Translations under genes and position numbers: made by a program
Notes under the pieces: model-generated
Told to the model about the DNA's origin: nothing
What the model saw: only the letters and a program-made list of their open reading frames with translations
Database searches by the model: none
Source: Anaerolineaceae bacterium
GTDB taxonomy: Bacteria > Chloroflexota > Anaerolineae > Anaerolineales > Anaerolineaceae
NCBI GenBank assembly: GCA_011620445.1
Contig: WOZB01000287.1
Location: 1 to 6,813 of the forward strand
Reading direction: 5' to 3'
Length of the DNA stretch: 6,813 nucleotides
Shown: positions 3,277 to 6,813 of the stretch, one piece after another
Numbering within the stretch: the stretch's first letter is position 1
Layout: the number at the start of each line of letters is the position of its first letter

Positions 3277-4239
3277 ATGAACTTAGCCATCATCGGCGTT
3301 GGAGAAATTGCCCAAAAAGCATACTTGCCTCTTCTTAAAACGATGGAAGGTGTGCAGATTGCCTCAGTCATGAGCCGGACTGCCGCGTCTGTTGAAATTA
3401 CGCAAGCGCGCTGGCAGATCCCGACGGGCTTTACGCATTTGAAGGATGTGATCAAGAGCCGGCCGGATGCCTGCCTCGTTTTGACCACAACCACCGCACA
3501 TTACCAGGTTGCTAAGAGACTTTTGGAAGGCGGTTTGGATGTTTATCTCGAAAAACCAGCCACCGTCACGTCCGAAGAGATCAAAGCGCTTGCTAACCTT
3601 GCTGCTAAAAATAGTTGCATCCTTATGGTCGGGTATAACCGGCGCTTCGCGGATTTTTACATTCAGGCCAGGGAATTAATCAAAACTGATGAAATTCTGC
3701 AAATAACGCTTGAAAAACACCGCCCTTTTGCCAGCTACACTTCCCTCTACAGTCAATATTTGGATGACACCATTCACATCATCGATCTGCTGCGCTCCTT
3801 CGACCCCGACCCAGTGCCCCTCCAAACAGCTGTGACTATGCGCAATGGTATGGCCTGGAGCGCTGTCAGCACGCTACGGCTCTCAAGTGGCGGCATAGCT
3901 ACCATCCACTCTTGTCTGGGTGCGGGTGCCTGGCAGGAAAAGCTTTCCGTTCATGGCGCCAGGAAGTCTGTGATTGTCAATGCATATCGGGACCTTACTT
4001 ATATTACTGATGAAGGTTACAGGGTCTTTGGGCCAGAACGGCCGAGTTCGTGGAAGTCTGAGTTGACTGAGCGCGGCTTCACCGCGGAAGTTCAGCACTT
4101 TTTGGATTGCGTGCGCACCCGCAAGACACCGGTCATTGATGGTTTTGAAGCCTATAAGACCCAGCTACTGGTAGAACAGCTCACCCTCTTAGCCGGTGAA
4201 CCTTTGGAACATGAAGAACACGATCGCAACTTGAAGTAA
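3277..4239 (+). CDS. Gfo/Idh/MocA-family oxidoreductase
   Basis: This 320-residue cytoplasmic NAD(P)-dependent dehydrogenase has the two-domain form of the family. The N-terminal Rossmann fold starts with LAIIGVGEIAQKAYLP (3-18), including the G-x-G-x-x-A/G dinucleotide loop. The EKP motif is at 92-94 (Lys93), followed by VGYNRRF at 118-124. In the C-terminal alpha/beta domain, the stretch from Asp163 to Asp170 (D-D-T-I-H-I-I-D) has an Asp and a His four residues apart (Asp163, His167). This is the spacing of the catalytic Asp-His pair in inositol dehydrogenase. The key residues are all present, so the enzyme should be active on a sugar, cyclitol or sugar-like substrate, but the substrate cannot be named. 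It has its own upstream region and about 200 bp of non-coding DNA after it, so it appears monocistronic. A link to the sugar operon at the left is possible but unproven. Confidence 0.88.
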   Translation: MNLAIIGVGEIAQKAYLPLLKTMEGVQIASVMSRTAASVEITQARWQIPTGFTHLKDVIKSRPDACLVLTTTTAHYQVAKRLLEGGLDVYLEKPATVTSEEIKALANLAAKNSCILMVGYNRRFADFYIQARELIKTDEILQITLEKHRPFASYTSLYSQYLDDTIHIIDLLRSFDPDPVPLQTAVTMRNGMAWSAVSTLRLSSGGIATIHSCLGAGAWQEKLSVHGARKSVIVNAYRDLTYITDEGYRVFGPERPSSWKSELTERGFTAEVQHFLDCVRTRKTPVIDGFEAYKTQLLVEQLTLLAGEPLEHEEHDRNLK

Positions 4240-4306
4240 AACAACCCACCTAACGCCGCTGTACCTTTGAGCAGCCTTCCTGGGAGTTGTCTGCCTCCAT
4301 CAAGGT

Positions 4307-4342
4307 GTGCCCTCAACAATGCTTTCAACTGTGCCTTCAACA
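4307..4342 (+). repeat. Three degenerate 12-bp tandem repeats upstream of the NTF2-SDR-FAD operon
   Basis: Units are GTGCCCTCAACA (4307-4318), ATGCTTTCAACT (4319-4330) and GTGCCTTCAACA (4331-4342), with consensus RTGCYYTCAACW. Units 1 and 3 differ at one base. They sit just before the CTTAAG/TACAATT element and palindrome, so a regulator-binding array is possible. No convincing reading frame explains them. Confidence 0.5.
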
Positions 4343-4358
4343 CACGTTTTGAGGCGCG

Positions 4359-4372
4359 CTTAAGATACAATT
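4359..4372 (+). promoter_or_regulatory. CTTAAGATACAATT element, candidate promoter core for the NTF2-SDR-FAD operon
   Basis: This is nearly identical (13 of 14) to 3159-3172. TACAAT at 4366-4371 could be a -10 box, giving a leader of about 70 nt before the ATG at 4449. A clear -35 box at the right distance is not seen (TTGAGG at 4349-4354 is too close). The TACAAT overlaps the left arm of the palindrome at 4368-4385, as expected for a repressor-controlled promoter. Confidence 0.4.
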
Positions 4373-4385
4373 AACACATTAATTG
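4368..4385. promoter_or_regulatory. Perfect 18-bp palindrome, candidate operator
   Basis: CAATTAA (4368-4374), spacer CACA, TTAATTG (4379-4385): the seven-base arms are exact inverted repeats. The size and AT-rich arms resemble operators of dimeric MarR- or TetR-type repressors. It overlaps the candidate -10 TACAAT and lies about 65 bp before the first gene of the operon. RNA hairpin function is unlikely, because the stem is almost all A-U and no T-run follows. Confidence 0.5.
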
Positions 4386-4411
4386 TCTGAAATAATTGTG
4401 ATGTTCAATTG
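4381..4411 (+). repeat. AATTG motif three times at an exact 13-bp step
   Basis: AATTG occurs at 4381-4385, 4394-4398 and 4407-4411. The first copy is also the right arm of the palindrome. The second and third copies form a further loose dyad (AATTG...CAATT, 4394-4410). This may be an extended operator, or chance in AT-rich DNA. Confidence 0.35.
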
Positions 4412-4448
4412 CCAGGTGGTTTTTGAGAGATTTCGTAACAAGGATACA

Positions 4449-4916
4449 ATGGAAGAAGCTCAAATCACTGAGACTACTAACTTAGAGCCGCTAACCCCAG
4501 ACCTTATTCGTGAGCTTTGGTCAAGAACCTACAACAAAGAAGGCAAACCGGACTGGTCGCACATCTTCCCCTACTATCACGATCAAATCGTCTTCCAGGA
4601 TAGCATTCAGCGCATCGAGGGCATCGATGATTTCAAGGCCATGTGCAACCGTCTGACTAAACGCTGCGACCAGCTTAACATGGAAATTCAGACAGTCATC
4701 ATGGAAGGCAATATCGTTTTCATGCAATGGACCATGGTTATGCGCTTCAAAAAATACCCTTCCACCCCAGTGTACGGCTGCACCAATCTCAATATCGGCG
4801 ATGACAACCGCATTATGTATCAGCGGGATTATTTTGATATGTGGGGAGACATTTTTAACGGCATTCCTCATTTCAAGAAAGCTTACCGAAGATTCCTAAG
4901 AAACAAATTCGGGTGA
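4449..4916 (+). CDS. NTF2/SnoaL-like fold protein, first gene of redox operon
   Basis: From ATG 4449 this is a 155-residue cytoplasmic protein of the NTF2-like superfamily, a cone-shaped alpha+beta fold used by isomerases, cyclases, hydrolases and binding proteins. Visible landmarks are the helix and turn IFPYYHDQIVFQDSIQRIEG (39-58), where a Y/D/F pattern precedes an I-x-G turn. IVFMQWTMVMRF (89-100) is a core strand. YGCTNLNIGDDNRIMYQRDY (109-128) continues into FDMW, and a basic C-terminal tail (AYRRFLRNKFG) ends the protein. The R-D-Y-x-D motif (Arg126, Asp127, Tyr128, Asp130) recalls the NTF2 proteins found beside SDR, FAD and cyclopropane-synthase-like genes in some proteobacterial stress operons; that link is from memory. 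AAGGA at 4440-4444 precedes this ATG. Longer starts (TTG 4383, ATG 4401) would place the operator within the coding sequence and add an unrelated tail, so they are disfavoured. A small-molecule isomerase or lipid-binding role is possible; no reaction can be assigned. Confidence 0.75.
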   Translation: MEEAQITETTNLEPLTPDLIRELWSRTYNKEGKPDWSHIFPYYHDQIVFQDSIQRIEGIDDFKAMCNRLTKRCDQLNMEIQTVIMEGNIVFMQWTMVMRFKKYPSTPVYGCTNLNIGDDNRIMYQRDYFDMWGDIFNGIPHFKKAYRRFLRNKFG

Positions 4917-4929
4917 TGGAGAGCCAAAT

Positions 4930-5847
4930 ATGAAGATGCCTGAAGAACTGCAATTCATGGTCAACGCGCGGATGGTTCAAAAAACCACGAATGCCCGCAT
5001 GGACGGCCGCGTCTGTGTCATCACTGGGGCAACTTCAGGCGTGGGTTACCAAACCGCCAAACGCCTGGCCCAGGGCGGCGCGCACCTGGTTATTGTCTGC
5101 CGCAATCGCGATAAAGCTGACGGTGTTAAGCAAGAATTGGAAAACGCCAACCACACCCCGGTGGATGTCATCCAGGCCGATTTTTCCAAGCTCGCGGATG
5201 TGCGCAAGGCAGCCGCGGAGATATTGGCAAATTACCTCCACATCGACGTGCTCATTAACAACGCCGGCATCCACAATACCCGGCGCCCCCTCACTAAAGA
5301 TGGTATCGAAACCGTCTTTGCCGTCAATCATGTCGCTTCTTTCCTGTTCACCCGCCTCTTGCTGCCCAAAATGCTCGAAAGCGCCCCCTCACGCATTATC
5401 CAGATCAATTCGGAAGGCCATCGCTTTGGCGGCCTGGATATCAATGACCTAAACTGGGAGAAACGGCGTTATAAAGGATTGCAGGGCTACGGCGCAGCAA
5501 AGGTTGCCCAACTACTTACCGTTTGGGAACTGGCAGACCAGCTGAAGGGCAGCGGCGTCACCATCAACGCGGTGCACCCCGGTGAAGTAAGGTCTAATAT
5601 TGGCATGAATAATAATTGGTCCTACCGGCTTTATAAGCGCATTTTTATCCACTGGATGTTGAAGGACGCGGCGATATCTGGCAGTGCCATTTATTATGCA
5701 GCGGCGGCTCCCGAGATGGCTGAGGTCAGTGGCAAGTTTTTTAACCTAACCATTCCTGAAAAGCCGGCCGCTCACGCCCTTGATAGAGAACTTGGCAAAA
5801 AAGTATGGGCCATCAGTGAAAAGTTAGCTGGGTTAAGACATTCGTAG
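4930..5847 (+). CDS. Classical SDR oxidoreductase, retinol-dehydrogenase-like
   Basis: This 305-residue cytoplasmic NAD(P)-dependent oxidoreductase should interconvert an alcohol and a carbonyl. It shows the full classical SDR set: RVCVITGATSGVGYQTAKRL (27-46) with the TGxxxGxG cofactor loop, VCRNRDKA (56-63), where Arg58 suggests NADP(H), NNAG at 110-113, Asn133, catalytic Ser161 (IQINSEGHRF), Tyr187 and Lys191 (YGAAK) and the HPGEV turn at 216-220. The order and the spacing of these blocks are those of the retinol dehydrogenase/WW-domain oxidoreductase branch, whose members act on bulky hydrophobic alcohols or aldehydes. About 25 residues precede the fold and are not typical. Start ATG 4930 has GGAGAG at 4918-4923. 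ATGs at codons 10, 15 and 24 are alternatives with weaker support. It starts 13 bp after the NTF2-like gene and so shares its transcript. The true substrate is unknown; retinoids themselves are unlikely in a bacterium of this kind. Confidence 0.88.
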   Translation: MKMPEELQFMVNARMVQKTTNARMDGRVCVITGATSGVGYQTAKRLAQGGAHLVIVCRNRDKADGVKQELENANHTPVDVIQADFSKLADVRKAAAEILANYLHIDVLINNAGIHNTRRPLTKDGIETVFAVNHVASFLFTRLLLPKMLESAPSRIIQINSEGHRFGGLDINDLNWEKRRYKGLQGYGAAKVAQLLTVWELADQLKGSGVTINAVHPGEVRSNIGMNNNWSYRLYKRIFIHWMLKDAAISGSAIYYAAAAPEMAEVSGKFFNLTIPEKPAAHALDRELGKKVWAISEKLAGLRHS

Positions 5848-5869
5848 GTTTAATAAAGAGTTAGTTGGT

Positions 5870-5875
5870 GAGGAT
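5870..5875 (+). promoter_or_regulatory. Ribosome binding site of the FAD oxidoreductase
   Basis: GAGGAT (GAGG core, 5870-5873) lies 8 nt from the ATG at 5882, in the 34-bp gap after the SDR stop. It confirms the start of the truncated gene. Confidence 0.65.
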
Positions 5876-5881
5876 ATATTA

Positions 5882-6813
5882 ATGGATTACGACGCAATCA
5901 TCATCGGTGGGGGTCTTTCAGGCCTGACAGCAGCCAGTTTGTTGGCAAAGCGCAATTTACATGTTGCCCTGGTTGAGAAAAATTACAATCCGGGCGGTTC
6001 CTGTGGTGTCTTCAAGCGCGGCAAAGTTACCTTCGATAATGGAGCGGCCATGCTCTACGGCTTTGGCGAGAAGGGCTTTAACGCGCATCGCTTTGTCTTC
6101 AACTGCCTGGAAGAACCCATTGATATCATTCGCCACGATCTGCTTTATGTTGTAAATTTCAAAGGTCAGAGAATCCGCTTCTGGCCAGATGTAGACAAGT
6201 TCGCTGACGAACTCTCAGGCATTTTCCCTGCAGAAAAAGATAATATTCACCGTTTCTACCGCGACATGTTCAAGATGTACCAGCACGTTATGGTGGAAAA
6301 CCCCACCTACACCAGCGCGGATGAAACCGACCCCAAGATCGCGCTGAAGAGTATGCTCAAGCATCCCGGTTCGTATATACGCTTTTTGGGGTATTTGAAC
6401 CAAAGTGCCAAAGGGCTCTTAAGTAAATATTTCAAAGATCCTGAAATTTTCAAATTCTTTGACAAACTCACGTCAACGTACTGCTATGCCACCGTTGAAG
6501 AGGCCCCCGCAGTGCTGGCGGCGGTGATGTTCGTGGATAACCATGTGGGTGGCAGTTACTACCCTGCCGGTTCCACCTTGTTCCTACCGGGCAAACTTGA
6601 GAAAGTCATCGAGGAAAATGGCGGTGATATGCTGTTGGAAGCAGAGGCCGTCTCAATTATCTTTGAAAATGGCAAGCCGGCCGGGGTGGAACTCGCAGAT
6701 GGCCGCACCCTCAAAGCGAAAAACATCATCTATTCCGGCACCGTCTGGAACCTATACGGCAAACTATTAGACCCCGCCTTTACCACCCCTCACCGTAGGG
6801 ATTGGGCCAAAAA
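5882..6813 (+). CDS. Phytoene desaturase/carotenoid isomerase/retinol saturase-like FAD oxidoreductase, 3' end outside window
   Basis: The frame is open from ATG 5882 to the end of the window, giving 310 visible residues of a protein that usually has about 480-520. The N-terminus MDYDAIIIGGGLSGLTAASL has the GGGLSG (9-14) FAD-binding loop, and Glu32 (VALVEKN) should hold the ribose. PGGSCGVFKR (37-46) corresponds to the second conserved FAD-contact block. GGSYYPAGST (223-232) is the G-G-x-x-x-P-x-G motif of the CrtI/CrtISO/RetSat group (COG1233-like). AEAVSIIFENGKPAGVELAD (254-273) is the usual strand pair that returns to the FAD domain. These enzymes desaturate, saturate or isomerise long polyene or isoprenoid chains, often at membranes. 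Pairing with a retinol-dehydrogenase-like SDR suggests sequential redox steps on a hydrophobic substrate. The C-terminal FAD motif lies beyond the window. The family is well supported; the reaction and substrate are not known. Confidence 0.85.
   Translation, partial: MDYDAIIIGGGLSGLTAASLLAKRNLHVALVEKNYNPGGSCGVFKRGKVTFDNGAAMLYGFGEKGFNAHRFVFNCLEEPIDIIRHDLLYVVNFKGQRIRFWPDVDKFADELSGIFPAEKDNIHRFYRDMFKMYQHVMVENPTYTSADETDPKIALKSMLKHPGSYIRFLGYLNQSAKGLLSKYFKDPEIFKFFDKLTSTYCYATVEEAPAVLAAVMFVDNHVGGSYYPAGSTLFLPGKLEKVIEENGGDMLLEAEAVSIIFENGKPAGVELADGRTLKAKNIIYSGTVWNLYGKLLDPAFTTPHRRDWAK

Follow-up and report, generated by a model that had tools for sequence, protein, structure and literature searches.

The operon and its continuation

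The stretch of DNA analysed here (the window, 6,813 nucleotides) is contig C192 of an Anaerolineaceae genome (G000; 1.92 Mb in 299 contigs, 91% complete), and its right-hand part carries three forward-strand genes, spaced by 13 and 34 bp, for an NTF2-fold protein, a short-chain dehydrogenase (SDR) and a flavoprotein (FAD1). Coordinates and Pfam matches bear out a reading made earlier from the sequence only, which had described three same-strand genes with these gaps, the first of them encoding an NTF2/SnoaL-like protein.

4240..4448, + strand: intergenic stretch of 209 bp between a Gfo/Idh gene and the NTF2 gene, possible control region
4449..4916, + strand: NTF2-fold (SnoaL_2) protein of 155 aa, ATG at 4449, Pfam SnoaL_2 9.9e-11
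4930..5847, + strand: SDR of 305 aa, ATG at 4930, Pfam adh_short 6e-38
5882..6813 (window end), + strand: 5' part of FAD1, 310 of 614 aa, ATG at 5882, Pfam Amino_oxidase 2e-12

The NTF2 gene probably starts at the ATG at 4449 rather than at the TTG at 4383, because many homologues of 155 amino acids cover 100% of the protein, and FAD1 is incomplete in the window because the contig ends. The genes had been credited with a control region of their own: the 209-bp gap agrees with this, but a promoter scan of 4230-5900 did no better than shuffled sequence (three promoter-like sites against a shuffle mean of 2.2, nothing above chance), the best site overlapping the NTF2 start codon.

The operon seems to run on from this contig into contig C190 of the same genome (locus L004, minus strand), in the order NTF2-SDR-FAD1-FAD2, as judged from an overlap of 138 bp between window positions 6676-6813 and positions 6705-6842 of L004 that is 95% identical and consistent in orientation; such identity is as expected from strain variants in one assembly. 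Read jointly, the two contigs encode a FAD1 of 614 amino acids, the stop codon of which overlaps the start of the gene for a second flavoprotein, FAD2 (522 aa). The junction has a parallel in five loci of the same genus (L130, L131, L132, L133 and L140), where FAD1 and FAD2 lie in tandem on a single contig and FAD2 is 56-61% identical. Beyond FAD2 in the window's genome are an opposite-strand DUF2804 gene (L004:2961-4052), for which no relative was found among the 80 other loci, and then PfkB and lipoate-ligase genes.

Recurrence of the NTF2-SDR-FAD2 cassette

A search of named genomes with an NTF2 alignment gave 245 contigs, the best 80 of which were kept as loci; phylum labels of the carriers were read from record titles, and locus counts are lower bounds because several contigs end within a few kb. 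Among these 80 loci, NTF2 was called in 79, SDR in 69, FAD2 in 58 and all three in 51; besides the window, FAD1 was found only in L022 (the same locus as L013 of the related genome G045). The recurring unit is NTF2-SDR-FAD2, not NTF2-SDR-FAD1. Within the 51 three-gene loci FAD2 lies on the other strand in 13; where it shares the strand, it comes downstream in 30 and upstream in eight. In two further loci (L076 and L093) SDR and FAD2 are fused into one polypeptide. The grouping goes beyond chance, in that NTF2, SDR and a flavoprotein occur together in many genomes, and the earlier idea of a multi-enzyme set drawn from families that act on hydrophobic alcohols and polyenes is supported; the window's exact trio is not what is kept, its own flavoprotein not being the recurring one and FAD2 sitting on the next contig.

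Carriers belong to the Chloroflexota, Firmicutes, Bacteroidales, Spirochaetes, Cloacimonadota, Marinimicrobia and others; most of the titles name groups known as anaerobes (Anaerolineaceae, Bacteroidales, Spirochaetes, Cloacimonadota, Erysipelotrichaceae and Clostridia). Youngiibacter fragilis (L083) is a cultured carrier of all three genes and has no heliorhodopsin match, and Trichococcus palustris (L092) carries NTF2-SDR. Closer to the window, NTF2 homologues occur in seven of 101 relatives (the window's genome counted) and, across the class, in 12 of 298 genomes. Each of the six NTF2-positive relatives beyond the window's genome has NTF2, SDR and FAD2 in a single run, and G045 is the only one of the six whose locus also contains FAD1, placed between SDR and FAD2. 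Across 50 loci, the pairwise distances of one protein correlate with those of the others (r of 0.37, 0.60 and 0.43; 0 of 1000 permutations each), which fits a unit moving together, although vertical descent alone could give the same.

For 22 of the 80 loci, the retrieved stretch yielded no FAD2. Six of them share a further feature: in each (L055, L062, L063, L065, L066 and L079) NTF2-SDR is followed by a gene of a single cluster, with a 96-aa frame in between in L065, and the three members scanned (from L055, L062 and L066) are of the RPE65 family by Pfam; L064 belongs to this type as well, but its contig breaks off within the locus. A sequence search of the PDB with the RPE65-family protein gave no match at E 0.01.

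In a tree of FAD2 proteins (frames above 400 aa only; of fused proteins, the last 540 residues), the copy of the window's genome clusters with those of the five FAD1-FAD2 tandems (100/100), and the FAD2 of G045 (L022) falls within the NTF2-SDR type. The window therefore looks, on sequence grounds, like a merger of two modules that have a FAD2-type enzyme in common. No description of an NTF2-SDR-FAD2 cassette was found in the open-licence literature of PMC (bioRxiv not included); the cassette is uncharacterised, of known enzyme kinds and moderately novel.

The encoded proteins

The NTF2 protein is predicted to adopt a fold like those of ketosteroid isomerase and limonene-1,2-epoxide hydrolase, to which, together with SnoaL, it is 11-20% identical among the matches listed. 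Its conservation across phyla is high: 36 of 158 alignment columns are invariant in 59 sequences, and Tyr28, Asp35, His38, Asp51, Arg126, Asp127 and Asp130 are present in all 59. Limonene-1,2-epoxide hydrolase depends on a catalytic Arg-x-Asp pair, the positions of which are occupied by Trp94 and Met96 in 59 of 59 sequences (ERTD of 5aif aligns with QWKM); identity with this hydrolase was rejected on that account, though the fold matches. Ketosteroid isomerase employs a Tyr/Asp/Asp catalytic set, and here the fold matches, Tyr28 and Asp51 are invariant, and the position of the second Asp appears, by a by-eye correspondence, to be Thr/Ser112. A steroid or triterpenoid conversion, with the SDR as hydroxysteroid dehydrogenase, the NTF2 protein as 3-keto isomerase and the flavoprotein as double-bond reductase, is very unlikely.

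The SDR has the short-chain dehydrogenase signatures (TGxxxGxG, NNAG, YxxxK) as TGATSGVG (residue 32), NNAG (110) and YGAAK (187), so that the complete active site attributed to it earlier is present, as is the cofactor motif. As to its description as retinol-dehydrogenase-like, the closest NCBIfam model is PRK06197, a group that resembles retinol dehydrogenases, but the score of 200.8 bits is under the cut-off of 268.

FAD1 (motif GGGLSG at residue 9) has as its best NCBIfam match the carotenoid isomerase model TIGR02730, and FAD2 has TIGR02730 and crtI_fam; the closest solved relative by sequence is a gamma-carotene desaturase (4rep). The earlier placing of the third gene in the CrtI/CrtISO group was right in that FAD1 is CrtISO-like, with the proviso that only 310 of its 614 residues are encoded in the window. 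Both flavoproteins are homologous to CrtISO, CrtI and CrtD across most of their length, but their scores are far under the model cut-offs: for TIGR02730 (586.9 bits) the two pieces of FAD1, scanned separately, score 180 and 110.1 and FAD2 scores 83.3, and for the CrtI family TIGR02734 (238.1 bits) the 5' and 3' parts of FAD1 score 73.2 and 42.2 and FAD2 scores 74.1. FAD1 is a family separate from FAD2, with homologues 73-98% identical to the G045 copy among the 120 matches listed (of 1519; 7999 candidates scored). It further differs from the carotenoid flavoproteins in an extra C-terminal extension with four Cys invariant in 13 of 13 aligned sequences (C-x2-C-x4-C and one 44 residues on).

A3 columns 541-593 (P0123 residues 538-590), alignment of 13: four-Cys extension of FAD1

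The extension has no Pfam match and may possibly be an iron-sulphur site of the GltD/DPD type. A structure model of FAD1 based on 13 close homologues (pLDDT 51) was too poor for a fold search.

Gene neighbourhoods, heliorhodopsin and possible function

In same-genus relatives, genes for a GT2 protein and a CrtO-type (glycosyl-4,4'-diaponeurosporenoate) acyltransferase follow FAD1-FAD2 in G025, G005 and G007 (L130, L131 and L132), FAD1 without FAD2 in G017 (L134) and FAD2 alone in G016 (L217); in L133, FAD1 is followed by FAD2 and UvdE. These arrangements, together with the grouping of the window's FAD2 with the tandem FAD2, would suit a route to a glycosylated (diapo)carotenoid pigment in which FAD1 and FAD2 carry out CrtN/CrtP-like desaturase and oxidase steps and the trio is accessory. 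We regard this as distinctly unlikely. Matches to the phytoene/squalene-synthase family (SQS_PSY) number zero in the 29 genomes of the genus searched, the 91% complete genome of the window among them, in a search that was positive in 37 of 101 relatives and in seven of 14 controls; GT2 and CrtO genes are absent downstream of FAD2 at the window's locus (L004); and among the 80 NTF2 loci CrtO was matched in none and GT2 in one (L086). A standard carotenoid cluster was rejected for the window's genome, which has no phytoene or diapophytoene synthase match; the earlier remark that no phytoene synthase is visible in the window can be extended to the genome as assembled. The sequence-only reading had also named a plain carotenoid cluster downstream as evidence against itself. 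On this point the outcome is mixed: the GT2 and CrtO genes of same-genus relatives are carotenoid-like, but the 29 genomes are without SQS_PSY matches and it is DUF2804 that comes next in the window's genome.

Heliorhodopsin genes recur in the same surroundings. One is divergent to FAD1-FAD2 in G025, G005 and G007, one is divergent to FAD2-GT2-CrtO in G016, one lies a single gene from FAD1 in G013 (L137), and one is 5.6 kb from NTF2-SDR-FAD2 in G340; in a Clostridia metagenome-assembled genome (L053:162-2176) a frame-broken heliorhodopsin is divergent to NTF2, about 300-470 bp away, the SDR and FAD2 frames being broken as well. At the level of genomes (counts being species samples with no correction for descent), heliorhodopsin is present in eight of 12 NTF2-positive members of the class sample vs 25 of 286 others (Fisher p 3.6e-6). 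It occurs in 24 of the 101 relatives: in five of seven NTF2-positive vs 19 of 94 others (p 0.008), and in eight of 11 FAD1-positive (at least 70% identity, one a fragment in G014; G051 at 48% excluded) vs 16 of 90 others (p 0.0004). Fifty trio genomes were taken from the 51 three-gene loci and the two fusions after leaving out L022, L024 and L032, which belong to relatives already searched (G045, G014 and G041). Heliorhodopsin was matched in 22 of the 50, SQS_PSY in nine (none detected in 41) and both in two, so that 20 of the 22 heliorhodopsin-positive genomes have no SQS_PSY match; nor does SQS_PSY occur in any of the seven NTF2-positive relatives. By record title, heliorhodopsin is found in 14 of 18 Firmicutes, seven of 11 Chloroflexota, the single Actinomycetota genome and none of the remaining 20, and SQS_PSY in 0 of the 18 Firmicutes. 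For background, 37 of 198 genomes in the class of the Firmicutes carrier G117 have heliorhodopsin, the trio carriers G117 and G123 counted in, the 18 Firmicutes being of unsorted classes. A Fisher test of seven of seven carriers is given no weight, because those carriers are related, were grouped by title and include G117 and G123 a second time. Type-1 rhodopsins (PF01036) and Blh/BCD (PF15461) were each matched in 0 of the 50 trio genomes, and the controls also gave 0, so that this is no proof of absence.

We tentatively favour the reading that the cassette acts on the alcohol or aldehyde form of a hydrophobic polyene. The compound would most likely be an apocarotenoid or resemble a retinoid, and the scarcity of SQS_PSY matches among carriers suggests that it is scavenged from outside the cell. 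This polyene reading is preferred because of the kinship of FAD1 and FAD2 with CrtISO and CrtI, the RPE65-family genes where FAD2 was not found, the CrtO-type neighbours in relatives and the association with heliorhodopsin; substrate, direction of conversion and tie to heliorhodopsin are all what we infer from these. The SDR would interconvert an allylic alcohol and its aldehyde with NAD(P); FAD2, aided by FAD1 in the window's genome, would add, remove or isomerise conjugated double bonds via FAD; and the NTF2 protein, with invariant Asp51, Tyr28 and Asp127 and no epoxide-hydrolase pair, might enolise a carbonyl compound and, in the manner of ketosteroid isomerase, move a double bond. In heliorhodopsin-bearing carriers the product could supply or adjust a light-sensing chromophore; it would serve another end in carriers without heliorhodopsin (the tested Bacteroidales, Spirochaetes and Cloacimonadota, and the window's genome as assembled).

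Several observations weigh against the polyene reading or its link to heliorhodopsin. Both flavoproteins stay under the cut-offs of all carotenoid models, and the NTF2, SDR and PF01593-type folds are promiscuous, so that family membership does not fix the substrate; six of 11 Bacteroidales-type carriers have an SQS_PSY gene. No more than two of the 80 loci as fetched include heliorhodopsin (L028, at a distance of about 7 kb, and L053); the 91% complete genome of the window has no match to it, and in G045, which carries FAD1 and the trio, its frame is interrupted by a TAG stop (G045:C25:16261-16936). Heliorhodopsin cannot be the cassette's sole purpose, because the 20 trio genomes from Bacteroidales/Bacteroidetes/Prolixibacteraceae, Spirochaetes, Cloacimonadota, Marinimicrobia and WOR-3 all lack it; nor is the cassette required for heliorhodopsin, because, of the 33 members of the class with heliorhodopsin, 25 are without NTF2. 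Related genomes are moreover not independent, and a common habitat could produce the association.

The known final step of retinal formation (Blh/BCO) requires O2, and to our knowledge the source of retinal in heliorhodopsin-bearing anaerobes is not established. A bolder form of the polyene reading, which we consider improbable, would make NTF2-SDR-FAD2 an oxygen-independent supply of retinal or apocarotenal: anaerobes without phytoene synthase or Blh would convert scavenged carotenoid breakdown products or retinol to the heliorhodopsin chromophore, the RPE65-family enzyme would replace FAD2 in some Anaerolineae, and carriers without heliorhodopsin would use the product for a light or redox signal. 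A cassette found in many phyla, its heliorhodopsin link in one class, the SDR-FAD2 fusions and a cultured carrier make the question of the retinal source testable; if the retinoid link fails, the cassette would still be a widespread uncharacterised set of lipid- or polyene-modifying enzymes. Neighbourhoods of heliorhodopsin and carotenoid genes have been described by Bulzu et al. 2021 (PMC8612252), in a paper whose main text does not contain the term SnoaL; the neighbourhoods described there are carotenoid-linked, whereas no genome searched here in the window's genus has an SQS_PSY match.

The main rival to the polyene reading is a light- or oxidant-responsive modification of membrane fatty acyl chains, in which SDR and NTF2 would assist a flavoprotein that desaturates or isomerises acyl chains, much as UfaD does on the way to furan fatty acids. 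It holds this place because a cluster on a Salinivibrio plasmid has the same NTF2-SDR-FAD order.

L099 (Salinivibrio plasmid NZ_CP114585.1), 5705-13992: MerR-photolyase-NTF2-SDR-FAD-DUF1365-cyclopropane synthase-DUF2878-DUF3833 cluster

In this Vibrionaceae cluster the trio lies beside photolyase and MerR-regulator genes and is followed by DUF1365 and cyclopropane-synthase genes; its NTF2 protein is homologous to that of the window (31% identity, E 2e-9 in the plasmid collection; 120 aa aligned) and shares the RDYFD motif, and a FAD2 profile gives its FAD protein a weak score of 27 bits when three sequences are searched. By analogy, UfaD is the nearest experimental counterpart of the cassette flavoprotein: PMC7380195 describes it as a desaturase of membrane acyl chains and compares its NAD/FAD-binding domain to phytoene dehydrogenases. 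The rival is nevertheless unlikely. The Salinivibrio SDR is distant (25% identical), its FAD protein aligns pairwise over only about 50 N-terminal residues, and the UfaD product 11Me-10t,12t-18:2 is built up only with O2 according to PMC7380195, whereas most carriers of the cassette are, to judge by their names, anaerobes. Nor do the DUF1365, cyclopropane-synthase and DUF2878 genes of the Salinivibrio cluster accompany the window's locus: a scan of 12 proteins from the window and L004 matched neither of the first two, which the sequence-only reading had proposed to look for to the right of the contig. A furan fatty acid cluster, which would have DUF1365 (UfaO) and a SAM methyltransferase nearby, was rejected because those 12 proteins include neither.

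The cassette might instead serve catabolism or detoxification, using the hydrogenation of unsaturated lipids or xenobiotics to dispose of electrons and having no part in biosynthesis or light responses. This would fit the patchy spread of the cassette (seven of 101 relatives, 12 of 298 genomes of the class, many phyla), as for a horizontally moved accessory function, and the presence of a hydrolase cluster in 10 of 83 clustered loci. A specific role is suggested instead, because the NTF2 protein is highly conserved across phyla and the cassette is associated with heliorhodopsin; we regard a purely catabolic or detoxifying function as distinctly unlikely.

Some neighbouring genes recur apart from the cassette itself. 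The hydrolase cluster near NTF2-SDR-FAD2 comprises L020:8824-9711 and nine others, and the one member scanned is an Abhydrolase_3 protein of the hormone-sensitive-lipase type; a SOUL-type cluster is also repeated, in five loci. A family of membrane-like proteins of 250-290 aa without a Pfam family (L130:8060-8854, L026:7969-8727, L071:5883-6743 and L037:2032-2886) occurs close to loci with NTF2 and to loci with FAD1-FAD2; the 265-aa member common to both has no Pfam or NCBIfam match of note and is TspO-like by eye only. In the window itself, the region 5' of the operon holds two neighbouring genes of the tagatose-bisphosphate-aldolase type (129-2359; one LacD-like, one GatZ/KbaZ-like), an opposite-strand DUF3592 gene and the Gfo/Idh gene, with no visible connection to the operon.

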